This document shows, piece after piece, positions 2,172 through 31,900 of a stretch of DNA of 64,000 bases. The notes beneath the pieces were generated by a model. It ran no database searches. It was not told where the DNA came from and saw nothing but the letters and a program-made list of their open reading frames with translations. The first letter of the stretch is position 1; each line of letters opens with the position of its first letter. This DNA is from an uncultured Flammeovirgaceae bacterium. GTDB taxonomy: Bacteria; Bacteroidota; Bacteroidia; Cytophagales; Cyclobacteriaceae. Location: positions 186,001 to 250,000 of the forward strand of contig CAKZYA010000060.1 of the NCBI GenBank assembly GCA_937883755.1. Reading direction: 5' to 3'. Made by a program: the position numbers and the translations under genes.

Positions 2172-2341
2172 GCAAGAAGTCCTTTCAGCGAAGGTACTGT
2201 TTTTACAATAAAGATGATAACTTGCCAGCAAATGTGTTCAAGTGTTTGTGTGCTTAGGTGGTCACCGCATAGTGTTCATGAAAGTTGAGTAGTCTCGAAC
2301 ACCCGAACATCATTCCATGACGGCCTAAACACCTAAATCTT

Positions 2342-2770
2342 ATGAATATCACCATCATCAACGGTCCCAACTTAAATTTGCTGGGCAAGCGGGAGCCAGA
2401 AATTTACGGTAAGTTTTCTTTTGAGGATTACTTGGAGAAATTAAGGCAAATCTACCCGGAGCATACCTTGGATTACTTCCAAAGTAACTCGGAAGGGGAG
2501 ATCGTTAGTAAAATTCAGGAAGTTGGTTTTAGTGTGGATGGGATTGTGTTAAATGCCGCTGCGTACACGCATACCTCAGTTGCTATCGCCGATGCGGTAG
2601 CTGCCGTAAATGCTCCGGTGATTGAGGTCCATATTTCTAACGTTCACGCTCGCGAAGCCTTTCGCCACCATAGTTTTGTAAGTGCAGTTGCTCGGGGAGT
2701 GATTGTTGGACTTGGGCTAGCCGGATACAAACTAGCCATTGATTTTCTCATTGAAAATAGTCAAGCATGA
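2342..2770 (+). CDS. aroQ: Type II 3-dehydroquinate dehydratase
   Basis: The 142-aa product has the standard length and motifs of type II dehydroquinase: the N-terminal INGPNLNLLGKREPEIYG, the SNSEGEIVSKIQ loop, LNAAAYTHTSVAIADA and EVHISNVHAREAFRHHSF. It dehydrates 3-dehydroquinate in the shikimate pathway. The stop overlaps the start of the following aminotransferase by 4 bp, so the two are translationally coupled. The roughly 110 bp between xerD and this gene contains GAACAC and CACCTAA-type short repeats. Confidence 0.96.
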   Translation: MNITIINGPNLNLLGKREPEIYGKFSFEDYLEKLRQIYPEHTLDYFQSNSEGEIVSKIQEVGFSVDGIVLNAAAYTHTSVAIADAVAAVNAPVIEVHISNVHAREAFRHHSFVSAVARGVIVGLGLAGYKLAIDFLIENSQA

Positions 2771-3840
2771 TAACATTTTACCCTGGTCCGTCTAAAGTCT
2801 ATCCGGAAGTACCTCAGTACGTCCGGGAAGCCTACGAGGCAGGAGTACTGAGTATCAATCACCGCAGTCCGGAGTTTATGGAAATTTTCCGGCGGGTAAG
2901 GCAGCTGGTCAAAGAGAAACTAGATGTACCTGATAGCTATACCGTAGTGTTTAGCAGTTCCGCGACTGAATGTTGGGAGATTATCAGTCAGTCATTAGTC
3001 AGTAAAAAGTCACTCCACATATTTAACGGTGCCTTTGGCGAAAAATGGTGGCGTTACGCTCAGCAGTTAGTTCCAGCCACCGAAAGTATCGTATTTGATC
3101 GGGAAGAACTGCCCGACATTGATCAAATTTTAGCCGACGATGCAGATCTTATTGCAATTACCCATAACGAGACTTCTAACGGTACTGCTTTGCCAGGTGA
3201 TTGGATGCAAAAGCTACGTAAGCAGTTTCCAAATGCATTAATCGCTGCCGATTCTACCTCTTCAATGGCTGGGGTAGCACTTCCCTGGGAAGCAGCCGAT
3301 ATATGGTACGCTTCGGTACAAAAGTGTTTTGGTTTACCTGCCGGATTAGCAGTTATGGTTCTTTCGCCTCAGGCTATTGAGCAGACTCAATCGTTAGGTG
3401 AGAAAGGGCATTACAACAGTCTGCTAAATATTTACGACCAGTCTCAACGCTACCAAACGACTCACACACCTAATGTACTAGGAATTTATCTACTGATGCG
3501 GACTCTAGAAAATCGAGCGAGTATATCAGAGGTTAATACTCAATTAACGAAGCGATTTACTGAGTGGTTTATTATGTTACAGAACTTAAATTATGTTAAG
3601 TTAATTATTACTAATGATGCCGTTCAATCTAAAACGGTAGTACCATTTCAAGCTACACCCGAAGTAATCAATCAACTACAAGAGCAAGCGAAGGAGCAGG
3701 GGATAATCATCGGAAATGGTTACGGCGAACTGAAGACAACCACTTTGCGTATTGCAAATTTTCCAGCTATTACTGATGCTGAAATACACCAACTCATGAA
3801 TTTTTTCGCCAACTTCGCGCCCGAAAAATTATCTCACTAG
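2767..3840 (+). CDS. Class-V aminotransferase, phosphoserine-aminotransferase-like
   Basis: A 357-aa PLP enzyme of fold type I. The N-terminus (FYPGPSKVYPEVPQYVREAY, then SINHRSPEF) follows the SerC-like pattern of FxPGPs and (S/N)HRS. ATECWE, HNETSNG, DSTSSMAG and SVQKCFGLPAG, with the PLP-binding Lys in VQK, complete the cofactor site. It could make phosphoserine or act on another amino-acid substrate; many Bacteroidota carry such a SerC-like paralogue next to aroQ. It overlaps aroQ by 4 bp and is followed after 4 bp by marC. Confidence 0.85.
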   Translation: MITFYPGPSKVYPEVPQYVREAYEAGVLSINHRSPEFMEIFRRVRQLVKEKLDVPDSYTVVFSSSATECWEIISQSLVSKKSLHIFNGAFGEKWWRYAQQLVPATESIVFDREELPDIDQILADDADLIAITHNETSNGTALPGDWMQKLRKQFPNALIAADSTSSMAGVALPWEAADIWYASVQKCFGLPAGLAVMVLSPQAIEQTQSLGEKGHYNSLLNIYDQSQRYQTTHTPNVLGIYLLMRTLENRASISEVNTQLTKRFTEWFIMLQNLNYVKLIITNDAVQSKTVVPFQATPEVINQLQEQAKEQGIIIGNGYGELKTTTLRIANFPAITDAEIHQLMNFFANFAPEKLSH

Positions 3841-3844
3841 GCAT

Positions 3845-4327
3845 ATGTTTCAGTTTAGAGAAATCATTTCGGTGAGTCTGATTCTATTTTCAGTCATCGA
3901 TATATTGGGAAATATCCCCATTATCATCAACCTCAGAAAGCGGAGCGGTACTATTGAATCGGGTAAAGCTACTTTGGTTTCAGGGATTATTATGCTGGGC
4001 TTCCTATTTTTGGGCGACCGTATTCTTCGGCTATTTGGATTAGATGTGGCCTCATTTGCCATTGCTGGGGCATTAGTCATGTTTTTAATTGGCATGGAAA
4101 TGGTGCTAGGAATAGAGATATTTAAACCTGATCCGGAGAGTGAAACGGATGCCACTATTGTACCGTTGGCCTTTCCGCTGATTGCGGGAGCAGGCACGAT
4201 GACCACTCTAGTTTCGCTTCGGGCGGCTTACAGTTACCCCAATATTGTGGTGGGCATCGTGATTAATTTATTTTTAGTGTATATAATAAAAACCCTCTTT
4301 TTTACGCAATATACGCTTATTTTCTAA
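3845..4327 (+). pseudogene. MarC-family membrane protein, C-terminally truncated
   Basis: The first ~145 residues are clearly MarC family (UPF0056 integral membrane protein): FREIISVSLILFSVIDILGN, SGKATLVSGIIMLGFLF, VASFAIAGALVMFLIGMEM, TIVPLAFPLIAGAGTMTTL. MarC proteins usually have about 190-220 residues and six membrane segments; here the frame ends at 160 aa. After IVINLFLVYI the sequence changes to KTLFFTQYTLIF and stops, so the last one to two helices are missing. I infer that the phage element inserted into the gene and that the displaced 3' end lies beyond the window. A simple host deletion is the alternative. Confidence 0.75.
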
Positions 4328-4335
4328 CATTTTTA
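4270..4335. other. Probable left junction (attL-like) of the prophage
   Basis: The homology of marC to its family ends in this AT-rich stretch (near TTAGTGTATATAATAAAAA), and the first phage-type gene begins just to the right on the opposite strand. The precise core cannot be set because the right junction, which would carry a matching repeat and the 3' end of marC, is not in the window. Position is inferred from loss of protein homology only. Confidence 0.4.
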
Positions 4336-4363
4336 GTGGGTGCTCACCTAAGTGTTAACCCAC
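4336..4363. repeat. Inverted repeat GTGGGT/ACCCAC at the element edge
   Basis: GTGGGT (4336-4341) and ACCCAC (4358-4363) form a hairpin that encloses GTGCTCACCTA. The same word recurs as GTGCTCACCTA at 8436-8446 and as its complement TAGGTGAGCAC at 9353-9363. It lies between the truncated marC and the stop of the leftmost phage gene, so it may be a terminator for the leftward operon or part of a recombination site. Confidence 0.4.
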
Positions 4364-4376
4364 AAAAATACAATTG

Positions 4377-4853
4377 CTACCAGTGCTCAAATAGATCATC
4401 ACTATTGCTTGATTCTTTTCCACCTTCATAGGAAGACTCGTTAGTAGGTGTAAAATCAATACCTGATTCTAAGGTATTAATTTCTTTGACTTCTTCAGTT
4501 TGCTTTTCGGTGAGATCAGTTAGATCGTCGGTGAAATTTAAGAAATCGTCTTTCTTTGGAAAAGCTTCAATCAGCTTCTGTTCTTTCGCCTGGTTATACC
4601 TCAGCATCTTCTGATACGCTTTCACACTGCCCCCTGAAGAAAAGATCGGGTTGAAGTAGAACACGGTACCCTTGTCTATGGCTATCTCAGGAGGTTCATA
4701 CTGGCATAAGCGGTAGAGACGCTGCATATTCTCTACGTAGCTGATGGTAAAGCGTTTGTATCGGTCCACATTGTAGCTATTCTCTACGCGAAAACCATCG
4801 TAGTGCTGTTTTGCTATATCGAAATAGTCGGTTCTAAGATCAAATGTTTTCAT
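4377..4853 (-). CDS. Hypothetical phage protein, MKTFDL start
   Basis: A 158-aa protein with no family I recognise. The N-terminal two thirds is mixed and aromatic-rich (DYFDIAKQHYDGFRVENSY, FNPIFSSGGSVKAYQKML); the C-terminal 60 residues are acidic and Ser/Glu-rich. Its first residues, MKTFDL, and the corresponding DNA match the start of the next gene upstream (5876). This suggests that the 5' ends share a duplicated origin or a conserved start region. It is the last gene of the leftward operon. Confidence 0.7.
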   Translation of the reverse strand: MKTFDLRTDYFDIAKQHYDGFRVENSYNVDRYKRFTISYVENMQRLYRLCQYEPPEIAIDKGTVFYFNPIFSSGGSVKAYQKMLRYNQAKEQKLIEAFPKKDDFLNFTDDLTDLTEKQTEEVKEINTLESGIDFTPTNESSYEGGKESSNSDDLFEHW

Positions 4854-4880
4854 ATTACTATTTATTTGGGTTGGATATAT

Positions 4881-5876
4881 TTAATCAGTGCAGCTACCTG
4901 ATGAACACATATTTTGTGCTGTAAAATCTAGTGTTTCAGTGTAGGGTAGGTCTTTAATTTGTTGCAAGGAAAGGTCTGATCGGAACGTCGCGTTATAGCG
5001 CTGTTCCATTGTAATCCAGAACTTACCTTTTTTAGGTCGTTCACGGAATTGCTTTTGTAGCTGTTCGATAGGCCTATGAAAACAGAATTCGCAATTATTG
5101 AACTCAGGAAAGCTTACGGGTTTGTCTTCCCAATAAGAAATTACATCAGCTTGTGTGTTTTTGATTACTGGGAAGTTTCCAATCCGCCAATGGTGGGTTC
5201 GCCACTTAATATTTCCTTTATGCCTTCCTTCTGTGTGGATACTATCAGGATACTTAAAAGTCTCTTTGAAAGAGGAGACTCGTTCTATATCGTCCAAGCG
5301 ATAGCCAATATTCATTCTTACTATTGGTTTATCTGACTTCCAGAAAGTAGTTCCTAGTGCATATAGATAGCTTTCGTATCGATCTACGCTAGGTGTTCCG
5401 CGATAGTGGCGATAACCATGTTTCAGGAATTCATAGATGGGTTTTATTTTCATCTCTGAAGTGCAGAATCGTGCTCTAGCATTGGGTAGAAAATTGCGAT
5501 CGGAGATAATTTTATCTAACGATTCACCGCAAACCACAATAATTTCTTTTCCTATATATTGCTCTAGTTCCATCACTGAGCGAATGGTTTCATCACTTTC
5601 TAGTGTAGCGTATACCAAATCAGTATCTAGCTTGTTCCAGACGTAACGGCGTATAGCTTCGTCTTGAATGTAAAACTCTGGGTAGTCAGTTGTTACTAGA
5701 GAAAAGATATTCATGTCAGCAGGATGCTTTACTGCCATCATTGCAGAAGTTCTTCCACCTGAAATGCTGTTTACTGTGAAAAGGTGATCAGACTGATTTC
5801 CTTTTAATAGTTTATGTCTGATATTCTGGATCTTTATCTTTTTCTTGGCCTCTTTACTGAGGTCAAAGGTTTTCAT
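4881..5876 (-). CDS. PAPS-reductase-like PP-loop protein
   Basis: 331 aa. A PP-loop ATP-binding motif SGGRTSAMM is at residues 39-47. RFCTSEMKIKPI (about 137-147) fits the R-C-T-x-x-x-K pattern of the PAPS reductase family. Cysteines CEFCFHRP (262-269) and a C-terminal MCSSGSC could bind a metal or Fe-S cluster. Phages of Bacteroidota often encode such proteins. Whether they reduce PAPS, act in thiolation of nucleic acid (DndC-like) or do something else is not decided by sequence. It starts MKTFDL like its downstream neighbour, and its start overlaps the stop of the 6064 gene by 4 bp. Confidence 0.8.
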   Translation of the reverse strand: MKTFDLSKEAKKKIKIQNIRHKLLKGNQSDHLFTVNSISGGRTSAMMAVKHPADMNIFSLVTTDYPEFYIQDEAIRRYVWNKLDTDLVYATLESDETIRSVMELEQYIGKEIIVVCGESLDKIISDRNFLPNARARFCTSEMKIKPIYEFLKHGYRHYRGTPSVDRYESYLYALGTTFWKSDKPIVRMNIGYRLDDIERVSSFKETFKYPDSIHTEGRHKGNIKWRTHHWRIGNFPVIKNTQADVISYWEDKPVSFPEFNNCEFCFHRPIEQLQKQFRERPKKGKFWITMEQRYNATFRSDLSLQQIKDLPYTETLDFTAQNMCSSGSCTD

Positions 5877-6064
5877 AGCTGTATGGTTTCGGTGAAGGTT
5901 CTTAGGATTTGATGCTTTTCCAGTTCTTCATCAGCATCTTCTTGATCACATATTAAGTAATAATGCCGAATTAGATACGCAGCAATCTCTGGGTTCATTT
6001 CTTTGGGATAGGAGTACAAACCCACCTCTTCATTTTCTTCGTCGATGACTTGGTATATTTTCAT
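5873..6064 (-). CDS. Small acidic hypothetical protein
   Basis: 63 aa, acidic (EENEEVG, CDQEDADEELEKHQ). No family recognised. It overlaps the PP-loop gene by 4 bp (ATGA) and lies 12 bp after the 6358 gene, so it is clearly inside the leftward operon. Early phage genes of this size often encode host-takeover factors, but nothing in the sequence shows a function. Confidence 0.6.
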   Translation of the reverse strand: MKIYQVIDEENEEVGLYSYPKEMNPEIAAYLIRHYYLICDQEDADEELEKHQILRTFTETIQL

Positions 6065-6076
6065 GATCGTTTGGGT

Positions 6077-6358
6077 TTAGTAAAAATCTATATTTTCGGT
6101 GCGAACCCATTCCATAAGATTTACACCGTTTCGCGTGATTTCTACTAAGGTGAAATGTAGATCAGTATCTTCCTCGTGGTAGGTAATCGTATAACCTACT
6201 CCGTTTTCCAAGGTTACTTCCTCTCCTGTTTCAGTGGTACCTATAGGAAGGGAGTCTGGTTGATCAGTTCGGGTGTAGGCAAAGTGAGTGCTTGAGTTTG
6301 ATAGACATTTTTTTAAGTCAATATCAAAATTAGGGTCTTTTTTTAATGTGGCTTTCAT
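6077..6358 (-). CDS. Hypothetical protein, beta-rich
   Basis: 93 aa. The middle (GEEVTLENGVGYTITYHEEDTD) looks like a small beta domain and the C-terminus ends LMEWVRTENIDFY. No family recognised. Its start overlaps the stop of the 6630 gene by 4 bp (ATGA), indicating translational coupling within the leftward operon. Confidence 0.62.
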   Translation of the reverse strand: MKATLKKDPNFDIDLKKCLSNSSTHFAYTRTDQPDSLPIGTTETGEEVTLENGVGYTITYHEEDTDLHFTLVEITRNGVNLMEWVRTENIDFY

Positions 6359-6630
6359 AATTTACGGTGCATGTTTCGGGTAAAAGAATGGTTAATATCA
6401 CCTTCCAGAAAGGTAGCGTAATAGTAGTTTTTGGAAAACAGGTCTTTGCAGTCGTACACCTGGCGTATGCGCTTCGCAAATTCATCTCCTCGCAACCGTT
6501 CGTTTCTTTGAATGATGTGGCCGTAAGCGTGTACCGCTATGGTTCGCAACTCTTTTTTATCGGTGCTTGACAACGATTTGAGGTGAGTTGATAGCTGTCT
6601 TTTTAGGGAGTTTCTAGTTTCTGGTTTCAT
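6355..6630 (-). CDS. Basic helical hypothetical protein
   Basis: 91 aa, strongly basic and helical (NSLKRQLSTHLKSLSSTDKKEL, HAYGHIIQRNERLRGDEFAKRIRQVY). A nucleic-acid-binding role is possible from charge alone. It overlaps both neighbours by 4 bp. No named family was recognised. Confidence 0.62.
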   Translation of the reverse strand: MKPETRNSLKRQLSTHLKSLSSTDKKELRTIAVHAYGHIIQRNERLRGDEFAKRIRQVYDCKDLFSKNYYYATFLEGDINHSFTRNMHRKL

Positions 6631-6872
6631 AGTAACGTGGTTTGGTTTTGGAAGATGGAATGTTGAACGGGTTGTTCGGTGGAATTGCGCGCAGCTCGCT
6701 CCCGGCTATCTAATATCGCTTGGCGTTTAGCCTGGAGACTCGCCAGCTGATGCTTGGCAGCACGAAGGTTCTCGCGGACGGTCTGGCTATCGCTATGCTC
6801 ATGATACGCTTTCATCCGGCTGATTCTGCCTTGTAAGTATTCAATTTTTTGATCAATGGTGAGTAAGTTCAT
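6627..6872 (-). CDS. Predicted coiled-coil small protein
   Basis: 81 aa, almost entirely helical. Residues 5-60 have heptad-like spacing (IDQKIEYLQGRISRMKAY, LRAAKHQLASLQAKRQAIL), so a short coiled coil or helical hairpin is likely. No family recognised. It overlaps the 6630 gene by 4 bp and sits 2 bp after the 7315 gene. Confidence 0.62.
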   Translation of the reverse strand: MNLLTIDQKIEYLQGRISRMKAYHEHSDSQTVRENLRAAKHQLASLQAKRQAILDSRERAARNSTEQPVQHSIFQNQTTLL

Positions 6873-6874
6873 GA

Positions 6875-7315
6875 TTATATGGTTTGAGGGTCAGAAATAA
6901 AATCGTTTATCCAGAACTCAAGTACAGACCAGTTAATGCCTTCGTTAGCATCTCGTTTCATATGTACAAGCTTCAATACTATTTTAGCTTTATCATCCGT
7001 TAGTGAGGCGTTAATGTTACTGGCAGCCTGGTGAACATCTTCAACACTCCACCAGTCGGCTATCCAGTAGCCATTCTGGCGTAATCGGGCGACCGCTGTT
7101 TGTTCTTCTTCTGAAAGAAGGGTATTTTGTTCTAATTCTCGCTTAGCATAATCAGCAGCTTCTAACGCACCCTTTGGTGTACGGTACTGATCTACGTGAT
7201 AACTAGCTAATTGAATTGCTTTTTGGCCGTGCTTGGTGGCTACTTGATCATATAAACGAGCTTCGTACACATTACCTTCATTATTTAATGTTCGGACTTC
7301 ATAAGAGATAAACAT
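6875..7315 (-). CDS. Conserved mobile-element protein, unknown function
   Basis: 146 aa. The C-terminal 60 residues (WSVEDVHQAASNINASLTDDKAKIVLKLVHMKRDANEGINWSVLEFWINDF) have the look of a short domain common in plasmid and phage proteins, with an acidic helix followed by G-x-x-W-x-x-x-E. No biochemical role is known to me. Its mRNA leader is produced by the hammerhead ribozyme just upstream: cleavage between 7340 and 7339 would leave a 24-nt leader before the ATG at 7315. Confidence 0.7.
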   Translation of the reverse strand: MFISYEVRTLNNEGNVYEARLYDQVATKHGQKAIQLASYHVDQYRTPKGALEAADYAKRELEQNTLLSEEEQTAVARLRQNGYWIADWWSVEDVHQAASNINASLTDDKAKIVLKLVHMKRDANEGINWSVLEFWINDFISDPQTI

Positions 7316-7333
7316 GATAATACTATTTAGTGT

Positions 7334-7387
7334 GACATAGACGGGGACAAAGCCCCGTTTCGGCTATCTAAGCCTCTTCAGTATGCC
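7334..7387 (-). ncRNA. Type I hammerhead ribozyme (HHR-B)
   Basis: Read on the minus strand every conserved element is present. Stem I is GGCATA/TATGTC (7387-7382 with 7339-7334, one G-U pair). Core CTGAAGA is at 7381-7375. Stem II is GGCT-tagat-AGCC. Core GAAA is at 7361-7358. Stem III is ACGGGG-ctttgt-CCCCGT (7358-7353 with 7346-7341). The cleavage nucleotide C17 is at 7340, preceded by GT. Stem I is the open stem, hence type I. TGT/ACA pairing with an AA bulge can extend stem I, which could serve the loop-loop contact. It begins at the base after the TAA of gene 7388-8293 and ends 18 nt before the next gene. Confidence 0.9.
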
Positions 7388-8293
7388 TTACATTTCTTTG
7401 ACAAAGCTTTTTACATACTTCGAAGGAATGTATAGCCCGTGGTTTATATGGGTGACTTTTTCACCTTCTAGCAGGTGACCACTTGCTTTACACTGGGAAA
7501 AACCTTCTTTGAGTTGCTCTTTACTGAAAGCGAAGAAACCACCATACTTTTTAATCGTGTTATCCACTTTTTCTTGTTTGGCTTGCTTCTTTTGCTGTTT
7601 AGTTTGAGATTCTTCTTTATTTTGTTGGATGGTAGCTTTGGACTCTTCCACATCTGCCCAAAGAATGATAGCCGTCTTAACTTTATCTTTAAGCTCCTTT
7701 ACTTTTTTATTAGCGTAAGAAAGTGCTAAAGAATGCGGTCGTTTCTCAGGATTTTCTTTTAAATACTGATGAAAGGTAATAGCTTCTTCTAATTGCATTT
7801 GAAAAAACTCTATACTCTCAGGCATCGATAAATTTACCTTTTGCGCTTCTTGCTCCCAGTACTTCGCTCTACGCTGGTGAGCTTCTGCTTTATCGGAAAA
7901 CTCAACACATTTACGCATATTATTATCAGCTTCCCGAATGATTTTACGGTGCCGACCTTCACTATGGTGACCTACTTTAATAGGTTCACCCAATGACAAA
8001 AAGTCTCGATGTTTGTTAGAAGCTTGGTAAGCCTGGTTACTTTTTCGCTCGGCTGAATCAGCCCAACCTTGTATTCTTTCAGCTTTTCGTTTTGCTCTTT
8101 CCTGAGCATTAAAGCCATCAGCACGGGTAATAGAGTAATAGAATAGCCCGTTTTTATGAAATACTAGATTGTGAACAATATGTTCATTCTCTTTCCCTCG
8201 CTTGGTGGTGAGGGTGATGGTTTCACCTTTCTGGTATTCTTGCTCGCACTGAGCTACAAATACATTAGGGCAATACTTTCGATACGTGTTCAT
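7388..8293 (-). CDS. DUF3560 domain protein
   Basis: 301 aa. Residues 62-150 match DUF3560: an ERAKRKAERIQGWADSAERK helix, then LGEPIKVGHHSEGRHRK (101-117) and NNMRKCVEFSDKAEAHQRRA. The family is widespread on plasmids and phages and has no established function. The N-terminus is a small beta region; residues 205-250 are Lys/Gln-rich coiled coil, and the C-terminus ends in a basic helical tail. The gene is bracketed by the two hammerhead ribozymes, so its mRNA could be released as a monocistronic unit by two self-cleavages. Confidence 0.8.
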   Translation of the reverse strand: MNTYRKYCPNVFVAQCEQEYQKGETITLTTKRGKENEHIVHNLVFHKNGLFYYSITRADGFNAQERAKRKAERIQGWADSAERKSNQAYQASNKHRDFLSLGEPIKVGHHSEGRHRKIIREADNNMRKCVEFSDKAEAHQRRAKYWEQEAQKVNLSMPESIEFFQMQLEEAITFHQYLKENPEKRPHSLALSYANKKVKELKDKVKTAIILWADVEESKATIQQNKEESQTKQQKKQAKQEKVDNTIKKYGGFFAFSKEQLKEGFSQCKASGHLLEGEKVTHINHGLYIPSKYVKSFVKEM

Positions 8294-8549
8294 GATACAG
8301 TTTTTAAGTTGAAAATTTGGTTGGTGTGTGCTAGTGCATTGAAGCGTAGGCCGAACGTCTAAGCATTGTTAGCAATAGACAGAGCACCATAGCACACAGA
8401 TAATAGCTCGGTGCTAGGCTACCAGAATTTAATCTGTGCTCACCTACCTACCTTCTTCCGATCTTTAAGGATTACCACAATATACCAGCATATCAGATCA
8501 TCTATCTGAAAGACACTGTTCAGTGGTTTTGCTCTACGAAAGTGCTTGA
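8294..8549 (-). promoter_or_regulatory. Structured 5' leader with possible pseudoknot
   Basis: About 260 nt separate HHR-A from the DUF3560 start with no ORF. Two inverted repeats interlock: AGCACC (8383-8388) with GGTGCT (8410-8415), and AGCACACAGAT (8391-8401) with ATCTGTGCT (8432-8440, two-base bulge). Pairing order i<k<j<l gives a pseudoknot. Further small hairpins are ATTG-TTAG-CAAT near 8365-8376 and CACTG-TT-CAGTG near 8514-8525. This leader is the 3' product of HHR-A cleavage. A regulatory RNA role is inferred from structure only. Confidence 0.45.
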
Positions 8550-8602
8550 GATATAGACAGGGACAGTGCCCTGTTTCGTCCTTCCGGACTCATCAGTATA
8601 TC
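8550..8602 (-). ncRNA. Type I hammerhead ribozyme (HHR-A)
   Basis: On the minus strand: stem I GATATA/TATATC (8602-8597 with 8555-8550), core CTGATGA (8596-8590), stem II GTCC-GGAA-GGAC, core GAAA (8577-8574), stem III ACAGGG-cactgt-CCCTGT (8574-8569 with 8562-8557), then C17 at 8556 in the context GTC. All invariant hammerhead core bases are present and all three stems pair fully. The 5' strand of stem I overlaps the TGA stop of gene 8601-8837. Predicted cleavage lies between 8556 and 8555. It shares architecture with HHR-B, but the stem sequences have diverged while keeping pairing. Confidence 0.92.
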
Positions 8603-8837
8603 AGACCCTATTCGATGCTTTCAGTACCGGACACATTGAGTACACTCCAAACGGATAGATAAACTCAACCTCATTATCATAAACATGAATCTTCTTTCGG
8701 GTTGTACCCTTAGTGACAGGGTCTTGAATTGTAACAGTCTTAGCGGTACGCTTGATAATCTTCCACTCTACCCGTGCCCGAGAATCACCAATGAAATTGT
8801 GGTGATACGTGGAGTTTACTTCAAATTCTGTAATCAT
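8601..8837 (-). CDS. Small conserved protein of plasmids and phages
   Basis: 78 aa. The pattern R-T-A-K-T-V-T-I-x-D, then TTRKKIHVYDNEVEFIYPFGVYSMCPVL, resembles a short beta protein common in plasmid and phage genomes (xxRTxKTV...RRKI.V.dg.e...PYGxYSMxP). I know no function for it. It is the first gene of the leftward operon, with a candidate promoter 45-76 bp upstream. Its stop codon is part of hammerhead ribozyme HHR-A. Confidence 0.72.
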   Translation of the reverse strand: MITEFEVNSTYHHNFIGDSRARVEWKIIKRTAKTVTIQDPVTKGTTRKKIHVYDNEVEFIYPFGVYSMCPVLKASNRV

Positions 8838-8881
8838 AATTGAAATGTGTTAATTGTGGGTGATTGTTTGAATGACTTATG

Positions 8882-8913
8882 CAATACTATATATTTATTC
8901 GGAATTACACAAA
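8882..8913 (-). promoter_or_regulatory. Candidate promoter of the leftward operon
   Basis: On the minus strand, TTTG (8913-8910), a 20-bp spacer and TAGTATTG (8889-8882) approximate the Bacteroidota consensus TTTG then TAnnTTTG, with one mismatch. It lies 45 bp upstream of the first leftward gene. The TTATCA half-sites start 15 bp farther upstream. Confidence 0.5.
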
Positions 8914-8927
8914 AAATGTTACAACTT

Positions 8928-8990
8928 TTATCATAAAAAATATGTAACTACTTGATAATCAGTTAGAAAAATTATCATACCCATTATCAT
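8928..8990. repeat. Cluster of TTATCA half-sites (operator or iteron candidates)
   Basis: TTATCAT occurs at 8928-8934, 8972-8978 and 8984-8990, with an inverted copy TGATAA at 8953-8958. TGATAAT (8953-8959) and ATTATCA (8971-8977) form a perfect 7-bp inverted repeat with an 11-bp spacer. The cluster is just upstream of the leftward promoter, which suits a dimeric regulator. TGATAATCAG (8953-8962) recurs at 63829-63838 near the other end of the window. Confidence 0.5.
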
Positions 8991-9099
8991 AAAAAGTAAG
9001 AAATACCCAAAATTACCCCGCATTTCACCCGTCTAAGCCTAAATATCTACACTATCACTACTATCATATAGAATATTACATACTATATACCATCATAGA

Positions 9100-9190
9100 G
9101 TACAGTAGATACTGTACGTATCCCTACCGTATTCTTGTACTCATTGTAGTTTTTCTACAACCCTGTACTATAACCATAGAGAAACTCTAT
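9100..9190. repeat. Three consecutive short palindromes
   Basis: Three perfect inverted repeats lie within 91 bp: GTACAGTA-GA-TACTGTAC (9100-9117), TTGTAG-TTTTT-CTACAA (9144-9160) and ATAGAG-AAA-CTCTAT (9176-9190). Each has a different sequence, so they are unlikely to be copies of one another. They may be binding sites for different regulators or small hairpins in a non-coding transcript. Confidence 0.5.
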
Positions 9191-9442
9191 CAACTATCCA
9201 AACCCATAGAAAACCCCTATATTACCCTACCTTATCTGATCCTTTGTGGGGAGTCACTACCCAAACCCTTATAAATCAACCACTTACAACCCAAAAATAA
9301 GTTTAATTCTTAACTAATATTTTAGCTTTCTCTACCCAATAGTACGAGCATTTAGGTGAGCACCTGCTATGATTTCCGGTTTACGACCAGTCAGATAGAC
9401 CTTTTGACAATACCTGACAAAGTGCTACCAATCTACCTACTT

Positions 9443-9464
9443 ACACCCTAATCTATTGTACTTT
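9443..9464 (+). repeat. Direct repeat, copy 1 of 2
   Basis: ACACCCTAATCTATTGTAC plus TTT. The second copy is at 9541-9562, with one base deleted and one changed. TTGTACT (9456-9462) also pairs with AGTACAA (9476-9482). The two copies flank the pseudoknot-like element at 9495-9539. Confidence 0.5.
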
Positions 9465-9494
9465 ACACTACACATAGTACAACGTTTAAGTACA

Positions 9495-9539
9495 ATTGGT
9501 CTCGATCTCTCACGGGCTGGAGACCAATATTTACCCGTG
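9495..9539. other. H-type pseudoknot candidate
   Basis: ATTGGTCTC (9495-9503) pairs perfectly with GAGACCAAT (9520-9528), 9 bp. CACGGG (9511-9516), which lies in the loop of that stem, pairs perfectly with CCCGTG (9534-9539), downstream of it. The two stems interlock as an H-type pseudoknot. The complementarity is equally valid on either strand. It does not match a ribozyme or riboswitch I know. Such a fold could be an RNA control element or a double-stranded protein-binding site. Confidence 0.5.
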
Positions 9540-9540
9540 C

Positions 9541-9562
9541 ACACCCTAATTATTGTACATTT
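9541..9562 (+). repeat. Direct repeat, copy 2 of 2
   Basis: ACACCCTAATTATTGTACAT plus TT, the near-copy of 9443-9464. It begins two bases after the pseudoknot-like element ends, so element and repeats form one compact block. Confidence 0.5.
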
Positions 9563-10012
9563 CTTAGTGAAATCAATCAATAACAGCTCTGAGATTCACA
9601 CACAGCAGACCCATCAAGACCATTGTATAAGCTATCCTACTGTACAGAGCACATTACATACTGATCTATTCTATATCATACAATTAGCACATCTCTACAT
9701 CAGCTTTCTTTCCCAACCTACCATAGCGACCAAGCTTTCTATTTTCAAATCAATTTCTCATTTCAAAGCTCAAAAGTGAACCACCCGGTCGAAACTGAGA
9801 GAAAAGGGGAGACCATGACCCACCCCCTTGAAATTAGTAGTAACCCCACTTCTCCATCACTCTTATCATTTCACAACTCAACATTGCCATTATACAATTA
9901 GGGATAGGTAGCAGAGTAGACAGGGTTGGGGTAGGTTGGGTAGTGGGATAGGGGCAATGGAACGTGTGGTTATGAACATTAGATTGTGTAATTATGAAAA
10001 AATAGGGTGAAA

Positions 10013-10045
10013 TTTTGGGTAAAAGTGAATAATGGCTTAGATTTG
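10013..10045 (+). promoter_or_regulatory. Rightward promoter
   Basis: TTTTG (10013-10017), a 20-bp spacer and TAGATTTG (10038-10045) match the Bacteroidota promoter consensus exactly at the -7 box (TAnnTTTG). Transcription would begin about 10050-10052. This coincides with the first ATG at 10051, so either the mRNA is leaderless or the true start is at 10108. Confidence 0.65.
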
Positions 10046-18928: not shown

Positions 18929-21301
18929 ATGCCTACCCAAAGCGGTGATTTACTTTCCCCTCCTAGCGATCAGCTAGACCCTCGTTATAAAAACGCCGAC
19001 TGGTATCAAAAGTGGGCTGAGTTCATTGAAAAGCTTTACAACTCTCAATACAACCAAAAACGGCGGGAACTCGCCCAGTACTATCGTCAGCTTGCCCGAG
19101 GGGAACAGCGCGTTCAGGACTACTACCACATGCTCAATATCTCTGATGAAGATATTGCCAATAAGGAATCTTGGTTTAAAAGCGACTGGATCACCTTAAA
19201 GCTCGATAAGTTCTGGAATATCGTAGCCGATAAACTTGCTGAAGCCAAGAAAGGACTTATCATTAAGCAGATCGATTACAACTCTTATCTGAGGCGTAGG
19301 GACTTAGAAGCCCAGATAGAAGATTTCGTCAATAACCAAGACTTATATAAAACCCTAGAGGGTATGGGTATTGAAACCCAAAGCCCACTTCCCGAAGGTG
19401 TACCGGTTCCTAATGGTAAAGATGAACTCCAGCTCTTCATGGACACGGCTTTGCAACCTAAAGTGATCCATCAAATGCATGAAGCGATCGACGAGACGCT
19501 TCAGGTGAACCGCTTCAATGACATCTATCGGGAATGCATGAACGACATTCTTCGGATTGGCTATGGGGGCACCATGAGCTACATGGGACGTAACCGGGCA
19601 ACCATTAATCGCTGCATCCCTGAGAACTTTGCCTTACTAGATTCTGACTTTTCAGACTACCGGGATCTGCCTTATATTGGCTACCGGCGTAAGGTGACGC
19701 TTGGTGAGCTGCGAAACTGGGACACCAATAACGAACTTACTGAAGAGGACTACTACCAGATTGCTAATAGCATTGACTCAAGCAAGTACAGTAATACTAC
19801 TTCCGGAACGCGCCATGCCCACTATAATACCACAGGCGAATATCCGTATGATCGGGAAGCGGTGTATCTGTGGCATGCCGAATGGTTCAGCGATGATCTG
19901 ATGGTGACCAAATCCCGGAAGAATAAAGTGGGTAACAAAGTGGTAGAAACCAAAGCCGCTAGTTGGTACAAGCCTCAGTTAGCCCACGAGGACTTTGTAG
20001 AGCAGTATGCCAAGCAAGGTCAAGCCGTACATGCCGAACCCTATAAGAACATATATAATTGTTACTGGATTGAAGGAACCAAGTACAAGTTCCGGATGGG
20101 TATGCAGCAAAGCCAGGAGCGTAACCGAGAAGATTATTCTGACCCTAAGTTTTCTTACCGGGTAGTCAAGGTAGAAAAGAGTCTATTAGAAGTGCTGGAG
20201 CCCCGTATTCATATGGCAAACGTCCATTGGTTCCAGTACAAGCATTATTCTACCCAGTCCAAAGGGGACGGTACGATCATGGACCCCACCAAAGGAGTGA
20301 TTGCGGCATTAGGACAAGGCGAAGAGGGAGAAGAGGCTGATCCCATCAAAGCGATTTTAATGAATCACAAGATGCTCACCCAGCTTGGAGTAGGATTTGG
20401 AGAACTCACTGCTCAAGGTTTTGCGATGCAGGAATTTAAAGGGGGGATGGCAAAAGCAGCACTGGATCATTTCCAAATGATGCAGAATGAGCTTTTGATG
20501 ACTGCCGAGGACAGTGGTTTTAATTCGGTGACAGACGCTTCCTCTCCGGATGCCGAGCTTACCAACCAATTAGCCCAGTTTGCTTTTGACAGCCATAGCC
20601 ATGCTATTGGCCCTTATCGGTTTGCCGGAAAACGACTACACGAAGAAACGGCGATTCGCTTATCGTTCTTGATTCCTGAGATGCTTCGGGCGAACAGCGA
20701 TCTTTCGCCGGTGGAAAAATCCCAGGGTAAGCTGTATGATGCTTTTGCAAAGTATGTCTTTGATGTCAGGATAGAATCTGGGCTAGAAGAAGCAGAGCGT
20801 CAGCGGTTGCATGAGATTATCATTAAAGAGATGGATGCCCAGGCGTTAGCTAGTGATGTGGGACTAATGATTCTCAATCAGGACAACTTACAAAAAGCCA
20901 TGTATCACTATATCCTGGCTAAGAAGCAGCGTAAGGAAGAAGAGCGTGAGATGGCTGCTCAAAATGCTCAGATGAACAATGAAGGCGCAGCACAAGCTGC
21001 TCAACTTGCCTCTGAAGCCAAACTCAAAGAAATTGAGCTAGAAGGCCAGTGGAAGGTGAAGGTGAAAGAGATTGATTTAGCAATCGAAGATAAGAAGTTA
21101 GAACGAGAGCGAATCCTTCAACTCACCAAGCACGACCACGAAGAAGAGTTACAAGAAGAGCAGCACGACCATGAACAGGAAATGCAGCAAGCCCAAACCG
21201 TCACTGAGATTACCAAAGAAAGTATGCGGGTTCAGTCTTCTCGACAAAATGCCACTGATGCTAATCGTTCTTCGAAGAAAGAAGTAAAAGAGACTTCTTA
21301 A
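18929..21301 (+). CDS. Portal protein
   Basis: 790 aa, the size of crAss-like and P22-like portals. It follows terminase and precedes scaffold and capsid genes. Visible features: helical N-terminus (KWAEFIEKLYNSQYNQKRRELAQYYRQLARGEQ), a central clip/wing-like region (ILRIGYGGTMSYMGRNRATI, FALLDSDFSDYRDLPYIGYRR), and a long C-terminal charged coiled coil (residues about 660-780, rich in Glu, Gln and His). Twelve copies form the DNA gate and motor seat. The 3' end overlaps the opposing gene at 21261 by 41 bp. Confidence 0.8.
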   Translation: MPTQSGDLLSPPSDQLDPRYKNADWYQKWAEFIEKLYNSQYNQKRRELAQYYRQLARGEQRVQDYYHMLNISDEDIANKESWFKSDWITLKLDKFWNIVADKLAEAKKGLIIKQIDYNSYLRRRDLEAQIEDFVNNQDLYKTLEGMGIETQSPLPEGVPVPNGKDELQLFMDTALQPKVIHQMHEAIDETLQVNRFNDIYRECMNDILRIGYGGTMSYMGRNRATINRCIPENFALLDSDFSDYRDLPYIGYRRKVTLGELRNWDTNNELTEEDYYQIANSIDSSKYSNTTSGTRHAHYNTTGEYPYDREAVYLWHAEWFSDDLMVTKSRKNKVGNKVVETKAASWYKPQLAHEDFVEQYAKQGQAVHAEPYKNIYNCYWIEGTKYKFRMGMQQSQERNREDYSDPKFSYRVVKVEKSLLEVLEPRIHMANVHWFQYKHYSTQSKGDGTIMDPTKGVIAALGQGEEGEEADPIKAILMNHKMLTQLGVGFGELTAQGFAMQEFKGGMAKAALDHFQMMQNELLMTAEDSGFNSVTDASSPDAELTNQLAQFAFDSHSHAIGPYRFAGKRLHEETAIRLSFLIPEMLRANSDLSPVEKSQGKLYDAFAKYVFDVRIESGLEEAERQRLHEIIIKEMDAQALASDVGLMILNQDNLQKAMYHYILAKKQRKEEEREMAAQNAQMNNEGAAQAAQLASEAKLKEIELEGQWKVKVKEIDLAIEDKKLERERILQLTKHDHEEELQEEQHDHEQEMQQAQTVTEITKESMRVQSSRQNATDANRSSKKEVKETS

Positions 21302-26862: not shown

Positions 26863-28919
26863 TGTTTACGTCTCCCAATAATCCGGTTAAGACTTACTTT
26901 CAACGAAACTTTCAGAAGATAGAAGGAATCAAGCTTATCTCCTCGGATGATAGCTTTGTGATTACTCCATATCAAGATGATAATATCCAGGTGTTTGATA
27001 TCACTTCTACTAAAAAGGTAGGTGATAATGAAGACGAGGAGGTATTAGCTACTTACCTATTTGGGGTATCACTAAATCGGCTTCCTTCTTGGGCTGAGGT
27101 GGCGACGGGTGTTGGCAGACAAGTCAGTGTAAGAAGTAACTTTTACGAGTTTCAAACAGGATCTGGAACCTACTGGTGGGTGGCTGTGCCTTCAGCAATT
27201 AATGCGATATTTAACTTTGGTGGGTACAATATCAATCCAGTAAGATTACGCCTGCATGGTGTGCTTGGCAACGAGGCGTACGATGTCTACGTTTCTCCCA
27301 ACCGAAACACTGGCCCACTACTGATGTGGTTGTCCGCTGAGAATGAAAATTATCAAGCCCCAGGAAGTCCTCAATCTCCAGGGGTAGGTATTCCTACAGG
27401 GTTAACCATTGTAACCGAAGGAGACACCTACGTAGAATTGCAGTGGACAGCGGCAGATTTGGCTGAAGGGTATGAGTTGCAGCGTGCTTTGGATGCTAAT
27501 TTCACCGATGAAGCAGTAACGCTGGATATCGGGGGGCTTACTAGCTATCGAGATGAGCAGCTTCGCTCTCAGGAGTCTTATTACTACCGAGTGCGGGCTT
27601 ATGGAGAGGGCACTTCTTCTAGTTGGACATTAGCAGTCAACCCGACAACAACGGCTCCTATTCCAGCGATACCCAACGATTTATTATTATTCTCTTCAGA
27701 CATCACTACGCTGGCAGGAGAGTGGACGAGTGTGGCTTTTGCGACGGATTATGAGATTCACCGATCGCTAACAGAAGATTTTCTAGAGTATGAGATTGTT
27801 CAGGCTTTAGTAGAAGAACCCAAATCTACCTTTGTTGATACTAATCTAATTAGTGGGACAATCTACTACTACCGAATTCGGGCTGTCAACGATGGTGGAA
27901 CTAGTGATTGGTCACCTATTCAGTCATTTCAACTTCCTTACGAGGTATCTCAATCACCCAATAATCTTCATGCAATATTTGTGGATGCTGGAACCACACT
28001 AGCAAACATCTTATACTGGTCACCACCATTAGGTGCGGTTACGGGGTATCTAGTGCGACGCAGAGTGGTGGATGATGGTGGTGATTTTACCACTGTATAT
28101 TTTAGCCCCGATAATGGGAACACCATCTTCACAGATGAAAATGTTGAACTAGGAAAGACGTATCAGTATCAAGTTCAGTCGTATAATAATCAGCAGCCAG
28201 GTGGTGATTCTGAAATACTCACTTTCTTAGCCAATCAGAAAAGTATTGATTTTTCTATTAAAGACGGGTCTACGCAGCAACCTATCAGTGGCTATGTTGT
28301 AGCGATCTTTAGTGATATTGCTAGTAAGGCTACTGGTGAGCAACTAACTAATAGTAATGCTACTGATGTAGTCACTTTTATAAGAGTAAGAGGCGGCGTA
28401 AATATTCCTTTCACCCCTATTGTTGATAATCAGCTTGGTTATACAATCATAATAATTCCAGCTGACAACCCCCTTGACGAAGCTGAGGAATACCAAGTTT
28501 CAATAGAAGACACGATTGATTCAAATAACCAACCGTTTCCTGATACTAGCATTACTTACACCACACTCACGGGACTTATTCCTTACAATGTTCGGTTATC
28601 AGCGAGCAGTGTAGCAGAAAATTACACAGGTAAGGTCGGAGATCTTCAGGCAGATGGTGGTGGAAACATGACTTTCACGGTAGATAGTGGGATTGATGAG
28701 GCTTTATTCAGCATTCAAAACGGTGATGAGCTACATCTAGATACTGCTGTAATCTATGACAACTGGCGAGATATTACTGGAGTACCCATTGATGTGCTTG
28801 AGCAGTACACCAATGTCCAACTAGAAGCCAAACGGCTTTATGTCAATATTATAGCCACCAATAGTGGTGGGTCAAGCGTTCCTTTCCCTATTTCTATTAA
28901 CATCTTACCCTCAAGCTAA
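26862..28919 (+). CDS. Fibronectin type III and cadherin-like virion protein
   Basis: 685 aa. Residues 1-165 are a unique N-terminal region. About 170-265, 268-363 and 368-458 look like three FN3 repeats, with the usual W and Y-x-x-R-A (WTAADLAEGYELQRA, YYYRVRAYGEG; YYYRIRAVNDGG). A beta domain follows (IDFSIKDGSTQQPISGYVVA), then a cadherin-like module (LSASSVAENYTGKVGDLQAD) of the type also found in the 32614 gene. FN3 and cadherin modules on virions usually bind surface carbohydrate. It overlaps the next gene by one base. Confidence 0.7.
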   Translation: MFTSPNNPVKTYFQRNFQKIEGIKLISSDDSFVITPYQDDNIQVFDITSTKKVGDNEDEEVLATYLFGVSLNRLPSWAEVATGVGRQVSVRSNFYEFQTGSGTYWWVAVPSAINAIFNFGGYNINPVRLRLHGVLGNEAYDVYVSPNRNTGPLLMWLSAENENYQAPGSPQSPGVGIPTGLTIVTEGDTYVELQWTAADLAEGYELQRALDANFTDEAVTLDIGGLTSYRDEQLRSQESYYYRVRAYGEGTSSSWTLAVNPTTTAPIPAIPNDLLLFSSDITTLAGEWTSVAFATDYEIHRSLTEDFLEYEIVQALVEEPKSTFVDTNLISGTIYYYRIRAVNDGGTSDWSPIQSFQLPYEVSQSPNNLHAIFVDAGTTLANILYWSPPLGAVTGYLVRRRVVDDGGDFTTVYFSPDNGNTIFTDENVELGKTYQYQVQSYNNQQPGGDSEILTFLANQKSIDFSIKDGSTQQPISGYVVAIFSDIASKATGEQLTNSNATDVVTFIRVRGGVNIPFTPIVDNQLGYTIIIIPADNPLDEAEEYQVSIEDTIDSNNQPFPDTSITYTTLTGLIPYNVRLSASSVAENYTGKVGDLQADGGGNMTFTVDSGIDEALFSIQNGDELHLDTAVIYDNWRDITGVPIDVLEQYTNVQLEAKRLYVNIIATNSGGSSVPFPISINILPSS

Positions 28920-31900
28920 TGCGGTTTTTAAAAATACTGTGTGGAATTCTATTACTGATCTCTTTGGTCTGGGATGAAGTACGGGCACAAGCCGTGATTG
29001 ATAGTACGGCAACCAAAGAAGAATTGTTAAACAGAACCATATCCGACGGTTTATGGAATCGCTACGATTACGGGGTGAATATTATTTACCATATCCATAC
29101 CGTTAGCGATAGCTTGATACGGATTTTGGCTACCAAAGACTCACTGCAATTCTACTATACGATTGCCAAGGCGGATTCTATCATCAATAATTACCGTAGG
29201 CTAGATTCTCTGATTACACTGGATGCTATTGATCCGGAAGGGGCAACTCTAGGCTATGTGCCAGCGGTTGGTCCAGGTAATACAGTAGTATGGACTGAGC
29301 CAGCCACGGGTGGTGGAACAGGGGATATGCAGCAAAGTATTTATGATACTGATGGAAACGGGGTTGTAGAACAAGTTGAGTCATTTGCTTATGGTAACTT
29401 AAGTGGTGTTCCTACAGAGTTTCCCCCCTCAGCCCACGCACATACAGTGAGTAATATCTCTGATGCAGGTAATCTTGCAACGTTAGATTCCGCCGCGTGG
29501 ACTACTCTAAGTAAGGCTGTTAGAGATAGTATATTAGTGCGCTTCTCAGGTTCCTACAATGATTTGGATGATTTACCATCACTTGGAGTGTTGTCGGGAA
29601 ATGATTCAGTGCTGTGGGATCATCTTTCTCAGCGAGTGAAAGATAGTATAGAAGTGGTAGCAGTAGGTGGTAGCATACCTGGCTTACAAGACTCACTCAG
29701 CAATAAAGTAAATCTAGCGGCCTTAGATACGATGGTTACTGATGCTGAGTTGGCAGCCGTTTCAGGTGGAGCACTTGCTGATGGAAGTGTAACCAATATT
29801 AAAATTGCGGACGATGCAGTGGATAGTTTTAAAATCGCGAACAATGCAGTTATTGGTGAAAAGATTGCTGATAACGCTATAGCAGAAGTTAAACTATCTG
29901 GTTTAGTGCAAACAAAACTTAATGCCTACACAAGTAAACTAGATATTGCAGACACCACCGCCCTTGCCCGAAAAACGCAGCTATTAGCCAAACTAGATAC
30001 TTCTAATCACCGCTATACGGTATCAGCATCCGTATCAGGCAACACTATTATCCTCAATCAATCCACTGGGGATGTAATCACCATCGAGGATATTCCCATT
30101 ATCACCCAAGAGGAGCAAATTAAGTTAGCGAATCAGTATATCATTCCTCAATTATATGCCTTTGGTGAGGCCATTGGGGATGGTAGTTCGCATCCGCTGT
30201 CTAATTTAATACCAGGCACATTCGCTGATTTAGCCGATGCCCAGACGTATTACAGTAATGCTACGGCGGTAACCGATGAACTGGGTGGACTCTGTATTCA
30301 GAAGGCTATTGATGAAGCCGACGCGCTTTATCAGACAAATAATTTTGCCCCAATTGTTCACATCCCTTATGGGAGTTACTGGACAACCAACCCTTTTACA
30401 CTAGGACATCACAAACGCATTTTTGGTATCGGCCCACAAGGAACAAGAATCATCGCTCATGCTGCCATGACAACCATGCTTCGCCTAGATGAACAGCGAG
30501 GGTTCTACGAGCACCATATGAGCGTGAGAGGTATTTATTTCGACGGCAACCATTTGGCTGACAATTTACTTGAGGCTCAGAATGTTAATGAAAACGCAAT
30601 TTTTGATGACTTATGGTTAATGCGTTTCCGAGGACGCGGGTTCTGGTCACGATCACCTCAGTACGCGACTCCTGCTAATCCAATCAATTATAGCCTATCC
30701 AATATTCACGCTATCGCTAGTGACCAAGTTGATGCAATTGCCGGAATCCACCTTGATGATGGTACGGGAGAGCGGGTACGATTATCGAATATCACGATCA
30801 ATGCCCTTAATGAAAACGTTGATGGTAGTAGCTGTATCTTGATTGATGCCGGAGGTTCATTACTTGCTCAAATAGAAAACATTCATCTAGAGGGGGCGAC
30901 CGTGGGTATTCGGATGAACCGGGGGATTAGCACGATTAAAGCCGTCACTGGCCATAGCACCGTAGACACCGTAGCCTTCTTTGACCGTACAGGAAGCAAT
31001 CAGGGGGCAGGAAGCATTGAGATGGTCACCTTGGCAGGTTCTACCGTCGCCTCAGCCTATGAAGAAGATACCCGAAGTAGGAGCCATAGCTCGAATCTGA
31101 TTGGCTCAGATTTTATTGGAGCTAATAAGTTCTCACTGACTAGCACTAGCGTGTCAGCCACTCCTTTTGATGTGACGGGTGGGATTGGGCAGACTGCCGA
31201 TATTGCAAGATTTTACAGTCCGAATCTTACTAACTGGACTGGATTTGATGCAGAAGGACGGTTATATGATTACCGTTACAATCCTGGAGTACGCTTAATG
31301 AGCCGTAATACCAGTGTTGGATTAGATTTATGGTATCACTCAGATAGTGATCAACTCTATCTTACCCGAGTCAATCAAGGTGATCCAGCTTCTAGTGCAG
31401 CCAATGGAACCCCTCTTTTCCGAAAAGGACGTGAGGCAATGGGAACTACGTATACTCCTAACGTCTCTCGTCACAACCAGACTAATCAACGCACTGGCGG
31501 GGCAAATACAACGACGCTACCCAATAGTTTGCCCGGTGGCTACGTGACCTTCTTCCTGCAAAATGATGCTGCGGGAGTCATCACGTTTCAGGCAGAATTA
31601 GGGGCAACAGTCAATGCCGGGGGATCAGCTCTAACGACGAATGGTAACGGTGCCTTTGTCCGGGCGGAAGTGCTGCGGAACCCTGATGATGTCAGTGCTG
31701 AGTGGATTCTCTCAGGTGACTTAACAGGCACAGGAGGGGGTGGGGGAGGAAGTCTCACAATTACAGAAACCCCCATTGCCAGTAACACTATTACGATTGA
31801 CTTATCCACCAACCGGCAAACGTCAGCCACCTATGATGCCACGGGAGACGTGACGTTTACCGTGCCTGCTTCCGGCCAGGTAGATGGTAACGAGTATCAG

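Follow-up and report, generated by a model that had tools for sequence, protein, structure and literature searches.

Two type I hammerhead motifs (HH-A and HH-B) bracket a DUF3560 gene on the minus strand of a prophage, where they probably serve as intergenic cut points of a leftward operon, as judged from sequence anatomy and from a survey of hammerheads in viral contigs. All positions refer to the window, the whole stretch of 64 000 nucleotides that was analysed, unless a contig is named (Table 1). The initial annotation had described two hammerheads flanking this gene; both are present where it had placed them, complete, of type I and on the minus strand. Its proposal that two cuts process a polycistronic phage RNA between genes appears to be borne out by the anatomy of the operon together with the survey comparison.

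Anatomy of the hammerheads and of the prophage operon

In each motif three stems are arranged around the core, with loops closing stems II and III and with stem I open; stems I, II and III contain 6, 4 and 6 bp, respectively. Every core base (C3, U4, G5, A6, N7, G8, A9, G12, A13, A14, A15, U16 and H17) is present in both, by the core-base criterion given in the text of Perreault et al. (2011; PMC3088659). Stem I of HH-A pairs 8602–8597 with 8555–8550, followed by core segment 8596–8590, and the cut is predicted after C8556; the corresponding elements of HH-B are 7387–7382 with 7339–7334, core segment 7381–7375 and a predicted cut after C7340. Differences between the stems of the two motifs are compensating. 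The predicted cuts delimit a piece of 1216 nt (8555–7340), in agreement with the ∼1.2 kb species that had been anticipated between these positions. Each hammerhead had also been said to lie directly after a stop codon, which is so for HH-B, starting right after UAA 7390–7388, but not for HH-A, in which the last two bases of UGA 8603–8601 are the first two bases of stem I.

Table 1. Features of the hammerhead operon and the adjacent prophage edge (window coordinates).
Feature	Position	Strand	Remarks
78-aa ORF	8601..8837	-	5' of HH-A; UGA stop 8603–8601 overlaps HH-A stem I
HH-A, type I hammerhead, 4-nt loop II subtype	8550..8602	-	Structure scanner; covariance model 50.9 bits
Predicted HH-A cut to DUF3560 start, 262-nt stretch	8294..8555	-	No tRNA
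DUF3560 gene, 301 aa	7388..8293	-	PF12083, phrog_17519; UAA stop 7390–7388
HH-B, type I hammerhead, 5-nt loop II subtype	7334..7387	-	Structure scanner; covariance model 55.1 bits
24-nt leader of downstream mRNA after predicted HH-B cut	7316..7339	-	From coordinates
146-aa ORF	6875..7315	-	3' of HH-B; weak phrog_10258 match
Six tightly packed ORFs (81, 91, 93, 63, 331 and 158 aa)	4377..6872	-	Without hammerheads
Left prophage edge, about 4284	4276..4292		Within marC 3' end

The 78-aa ORF has no match in Pfam or PHROG, and the 331-aa ORF resembles the PAPS reductase-like phrog_424. A terminator scan of the operon gave no minus-strand site inside it, so that a single transcript across HH-A and HH-B is plausible. 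Consensus scans for an operon promoter were at chance level and identified none with confidence; the position is compatible with the suggested early operon. Between the leftward operon and the rightward genes, ∼1.2 kb (8838–10040) contains no convincing gene. A promoter-like TTTG-TANNTTTG match lies on the plus strand at 10014–10045, one of three in the window against 1.5 expected, and the end of the phage ORF at 10307–11140 matches a co-chaperonin GroES PHROG (phrog_3188). The predicted fold of the DUF3560 protein is a weak model (pTM 0.41), which has no match in the PDB at E ≤ 0.001.

The carrier is a prophage of ∼81 kb extending from position 4284 (C60:190284) to about C60:271179. It sits where genome G002 has an uninterrupted marC–rnhA border, and 9 bp are common to both edges. 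The gene content includes a terminase, a portal and a helicase/toprim protein, with a gene of the phage integrase family near the right edge. On these coordinates, the hammerhead operon of an excised circle would read across the joined ends toward the integrase and replication genes. One further copy of the operon was found, on a G002 contig that is 99.9% identical over 12 kb and has both hammerheads unchanged. This phage contig starts inside the same marC gene, and a separate marC region of G002 runs on uninterrupted; the copy is taken to be the same phage, perhaps misbinned, and does not count as independent conservation. Distant terminase relatives (22–26% identity) occur in three loci of the survey (L041, L109 and L144), and searches of viral_contigs by terminase or by the 146-aa protein confirmed no relative of the phage.

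Differences between the window and the compared copies (L025 and L169; G002:C481) fall in tight clusters. Inside the DUF3560 gene, eight changes lie within 44 nt (7659–7616); at each of them the other copy has T on the minus strand, and an in-frame TAG occurs in it at this cluster. Seven changes at 20263–20749 and 23454 are all A in the window, and ORF 28919–32614 contains groups of nine and 22 (30832–30868 and 31843–32041). Assembly error, targeted mutation or recombination may be the cause of this clustering.

A loose core pattern has five matches in the window, all at the HH-A and HH-B sites, compared with 0.34 expected; genome-wide it gives 63 matches and its reversed control also 63, so the loose pattern alone proves nothing. 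A strict structure scanner, which requires the stems, finds HH-A and HH-B and has no hit in 100 Markov-randomised 64-kb windows; a type III-like match inside the DUF3560 gene (7702–7807, plus strand) has weak stems (4, 2.5 and 4) and was discounted. A covariance model was constructed from 60 of the 113 short non-redundant viral-contig hammerheads among the pattern matches listed, with HH-A and HH-B excluded. The scores that it assigns to them (Table 1) compare with a next best of 14.6 bits in 93 kb and of 18.5 bits (E of 0.3) in the whole 7.6-Mb genome, and over 293 related genomes only their own genome and G002 match. The 60-row alignment has a covariation of 0.856, against 0.161 when shuffled, and 100% of its cells are paired; both figures are partly circular owing to preselection of the rows for pairing. 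Rfam gives no match to either motif at its gathering scores, which are a curator's cut-off and not a molecular property. RF00163 (Hammerhead_1) and RF03152 (RAGATH-1 hammerhead) have the fold and core of HH-A and HH-B, but score under both thresholds: RF00163 reaches 21.4 bits on HH-A (threshold 34), and RF03152 20.9 bits on HH-B and 19.7 bits on HH-A (threshold 56.3).

The isolated cores fold as hammerheads, with energies of −15.1 kcal/mol for HH-A (53 nt) and −17.3 kcal/mol for HH-B (54 nt). In three longer stretches the hammerhead fold has to be forced at a cost of 0.0, 1.6 and 3.8 kcal/mol (HH-A) or 0.9, 2.0 and 6.0 kcal/mol (HH-B); the energy models, which ignore tertiary contacts and folding during transcription, would thus prefer other pairings by at most 6.0 kcal/mol in the longer context. 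For 253 survey hammerheads among the matches listed, the mean cost is 1.55 kcal/mol when the native 60 nt upstream are included, 1.61 kcal/mol with upstream sequences swapped between loci and 2.2 kcal/mol with shuffled ones. The native and swapped values give no support to an anti-ribozyme pairing selected in the upstream gene: in these models alternative pairings would compete with the hammerheads, and a selected anti-ribozyme switch shows no sign. The structured 260-nt leader that had been attributed to the DUF3560 mRNA has about that length (262 nt, 8555–8294), but is no stabler than shuffled sequence (with 9 nt of the gene included, z is −0.84 and 38 of 200 shuffles are as good). A tRNA-like leader was also sought upstream of DUF3560 and none was found; the window has no tRNA. 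Since none of the ribozyme stems includes the translation start region of the 146-aa ORF, there is no indication that cleavage would unmask its translation.

Hammerheads at the gene borders of other viral contigs

Two sets of loci were collected from viral contigs. Set A contains at least 120 loci found by pattern, 108 of those listed having a strict hammerhead; set B, obtained separately with a second pattern that differs in its stem I bases, adds at least 117 loci new relative to set A, 109 of them with a hammerhead among the matches listed. The matches listed contain 178 hammerheads for set A (167 of type I) and 154 of type I for set B; removal of near-duplicates left 132 and 123 of type I, respectively. 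A reversed-pattern control returned 17 loci and no hammerhead. ORFs in the survey were defined mechanically and are not gene calls.

The characteristic layout consists of a stop codon, the ribozyme, 10–29 nt and a start codon; it held in set B among the matches listed there. For hammerheads with 300 nt upstream, the stop of an ORF of at least 80 codons lies between −5 and +9 of the first ribozyme base in 58/128 cases in set A, where the pattern was first noticed, and in 45/116 cases in set B (matches listed), compared with 2.3% at random sites and with 4/128 and 0/116 on the opposite strand. For 183 of the 257 listed hammerheads, HH-A and HH-B included, the first start codon (ORFs of at least 50 codons) is located 10–29 nt beyond stem I, whereas ∼34 are expected. 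Both neighbours (ORFs of at least 60 codons), one whose stop is no more than 20 nt from the start of the ribozyme and one that begins up to 60 nt after it, are present for 149 of the 226 listed hammerheads with enough flank. All hammerheads are on one strand in each of the 44 loci with several non-redundant hammerheads among the matches listed. One locus (L147) carries 12 hammerheads, 11 of type I, within 6.3 kb (2292–8607), where they separate most of the small genes. A further helix beyond stem I was considered and rejected, with 32.0% observed and 31.9% with flanks swapped (matches listed).

The length of loop II covaries with the bases that flank the 6-bp stem I in these phage type I hammerheads, a relation that may point to a tertiary contact between loop II and the stem I region. 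Among the 257 listed (again with HH-A and HH-B), 147 have a 5-nt loop II; stem I is preceded by A in 144 of these and followed by A in all 147, with a second A in 117. Another 26 have a 4-nt loop II, with stem I preceded by T in 12, followed by T in 20 and next by A in 20. The remaining 84 have other loops, exceeding 6 nt in 37 of them. HH-B belongs to the 5-nt and HH-A to the 4-nt subtype, each agreeing with its own kind at −1 and +1; both depart at +2, the next position past stem I, where they have C and A occurs in 117/147 and 20/26 of the respective listed subtypes. Since they are of different subtypes, a recent duplication is unlikely.

Genes next to the survey hammerheads are diverse. 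Sixty proteins, chosen from 99 upstream and 96 downstream proteins of at least 90 aa among the matches listed, match 36 different PHROGs, the largest being anti-restriction with five proteins; RNA polymerase, MazG-like, GTP cyclohydrolase and RecE-like proteins occur once each (25 of the 36 families were listed). A special link between DUF3560 and the ribozymes is not supported by other loci: of 22 with a DUF3560 hit (L009–L018, L021–L024 and L026–L033), at least half of them weak or partial matches and one (L009) with only ∼300 nt upstream to compare, none has a strict hammerhead. The idea that the ribozymes are present on account of DUF3560 was therefore rejected. In two Pasteurella phages (L032 and L033) two tRNA genes and a tRNA-like gene, called with an 8-base anticodon loop, are located at 5631–5874 just upstream of the DUF3560 relative, and the window contains nothing like them.

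Probable intergenic cutting and alternative readings

Cleavage by a hammerhead leaves a 2',3'-cyclic phosphate on the upstream piece and a 5'-OH on the downstream piece. From this known chemistry, each motif would fold as the RNA polymerase passes and cut ∼45 nt beyond the preceding stop codon, splitting the transcript into an orf78 piece, the 1216-nt DUF3560 piece and the remainder. The upstream piece would retain its stop and end in the stem II and III hairpins with the cyclic phosphate; the downstream piece would begin with the 5'-OH and have its own start region, behind a leader of 24 nt for the 146-aa ORF or 262 nt for DUF3560. Such cutting would probably allow adjacent genes to differ in the stability and yield of their RNAs with no nuclease involved, an effect comparable to that of RNase III sites in the T7 early operon.

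Translation might add a further level of control. If a terminating ribosome covers the ribozyme and blocks its folding, cleavage would follow once the ribosome leaves, and cutting would report on translation of the upstream gene; this would supplement intergenic cutting and not oppose it. HH-A and HH-B both adjoin or overlap upstream stops, and of the 161 listed survey hammerheads for which an upstream ORF was identified, 112 have a stop that ends at the base before stem I or later. Because ribozyme bases so often double as the upstream stop, there is a hint of cleavage being gated by ribosomes that terminate there. Of these 161 stops, 26 end on the base before stem I, 24 (UAG in 20 cases) on its first base, 26 farther inside the stem, 21 at the core UGA and 15 beyond it, and the other 49 end further upstream. 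Compactness of the genomes alone would, however, place elements near stops, and the ribozyme has stops in all frames, so that any ORF entering it ends there. In an open-frame null the core UGA would take 23% of the stops, the stem I end 10%, and positions −5 and −6 (relative to C3) 8 and 5%, and the 161 listed show 13, 10, 15 and 16%, respectively; the core UGA is therefore used less than the null predicts, and the excess is confined to −6 and −5. The stop of HH-B (UAA) ends at −6 and that of HH-A (UGA) at −4. The fold costs given above for native and swapped upstream sequences of the listed hammerheads likewise argue against selected pairing with the upstream gene, and on balance we regard gating by translation as unlikely, though attractive. 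A stronger form, in which phages merged translation termination and RNA self-cleavage, is similarly doubtful: the upstream stop would include the A that precedes stem I, the opening base or the end of that stem, or the catalytic core UGA, and the ribosome would hold the ribozyme open and permit cleavage only once the upstream gene has been translated; if true, HH-A and HH-B would be two instances of it in two structural subtypes in one operon.

It is improbable that the ribozymes are idle remnants or neutral hitch-hikers from phage segments that have no effect on expression. The variety of flanking genes would suit such passengers, as would the absence of hammerheads from the 22 other DUF3560 loci and from 291 of 293 related genomes, but the cores and stems of HH-A and HH-B are intact, position and strand are tightly constrained among the survey matches listed, and drifting remnants would not show the association of loop II with the bases next to stem I. 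Still less credible is double cleavage followed by ligation, giving a ∼1.2-kb DUF3560 circle or joining orf78 to downstream RNA, which we consider highly improbable. Two ribozymes on one strand could in principle act in this way, the joining stem for a splice is complete (five Watson–Crick pairs and one G–U), and among the matches listed 21/44 neighbouring pairs of the 5-nt-loop subtype have a circle-compatible and 24/44 a splice-compatible stem I, compared with only 7.1% circle-compatible between loci. As evidence of a selected function this was rejected. Stem I likeness in set A was 0.67 within and 0.43 between loci when weighted by pairs (matches listed); with weighting by locus, and in the 5-nt-loop subtype of both sets together, stem III has the same excess (0.48 and 0.44 on a 0–1 scale for the listed matches, indistinguishable), so common descent explains it. 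The joining stem of six pairs for the circle has one mismatch and one G–U. The unit of a retrozyme is bounded on either side by nearly identical ribozymes in direct repeat; HH-A and HH-B belong to different subtypes, and 8450–8700 and 7250–7500 have no 12-mer in common, so a retrozyme-like direct repeat is absent. Spliced and circular products of comparable arrangements were sought by Perreault et al. (2011; PMC3088659) and, according to its text, none was detected. The circularisation raised by the initial annotation is accordingly not favoured, and intergenic cutting remains the preferred reading.

The window thus provides an operon with two ribozymes whose cut positions are predicted at single-base resolution, and the survey layout turns the presence of phage hammerheads near genes into a rule for RNA ends and stops that is directly testable by end-mapping RNA sequencing; L147 is the best natural test case for operon cutting by ribozymes. 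What may be new here is this layout rule together with the stop-codon overlap. The overlap was not seen in the literature searched, a weak negative as subscription papers were mostly outside its coverage, and a term search did not find 'stop codon' in the main text of PMC3088659.

Relation to known systems

RNase III sites cut the polycistronic RNA of the T7 early operon between genes. There a host nuclease does the cutting, whereas the RNA at HH-A and HH-B would cut itself. The bracketing arrangement and the ideas of single-gene mRNAs and circles are not new, having been published in 2011 (PMC3088659). According to the text of that report, prophage hammerheads flank single genes or short blocks in Clostridium scindens, Azorhizobium caulinodans and Agrobacterium tumefaciens; processing to single-gene or operon-length mRNAs is proposed, with circles and splices mentioned as undetected, and three arrangements were cleaved in vitro and one in E. 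coli. As in those clusters, at least two same-strand hammerheads surround a single gene in a prophage here, and the flanking genes are variable; the genes themselves (there e.g. ardA, here DUF3560) and the host group are different. The text of a 2017 review leaves the role of prokaryotic hammerheads open and describes them as flanking small ORFs (PMC6155905), and that of another report finds them enriched near Mu-like phage genes and other ribozymes, for a reason described there as unknown (PMC10085705).

Theta ribozymes of gut phages, as described in the text of PMC10879173, are likewise small self-cleaving phage RNAs with a proposed processing role. They have an HDV-like fold and are tied to tRNAs, whereas the window has neither a tRNA nor an HDV-like Rfam match, and no HDV-like fold beside tRNA genes was found in it. 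Retrozymes and circular hammerhead RNAs, in the descriptions given by PMC4918200 and PMC7761336, resemble the present operon in having hammerhead pairs on one RNA; they propagate as circles, whereas here the subtypes and flanks differ and the segment between the two hammerheads is an ordinary phage gene.
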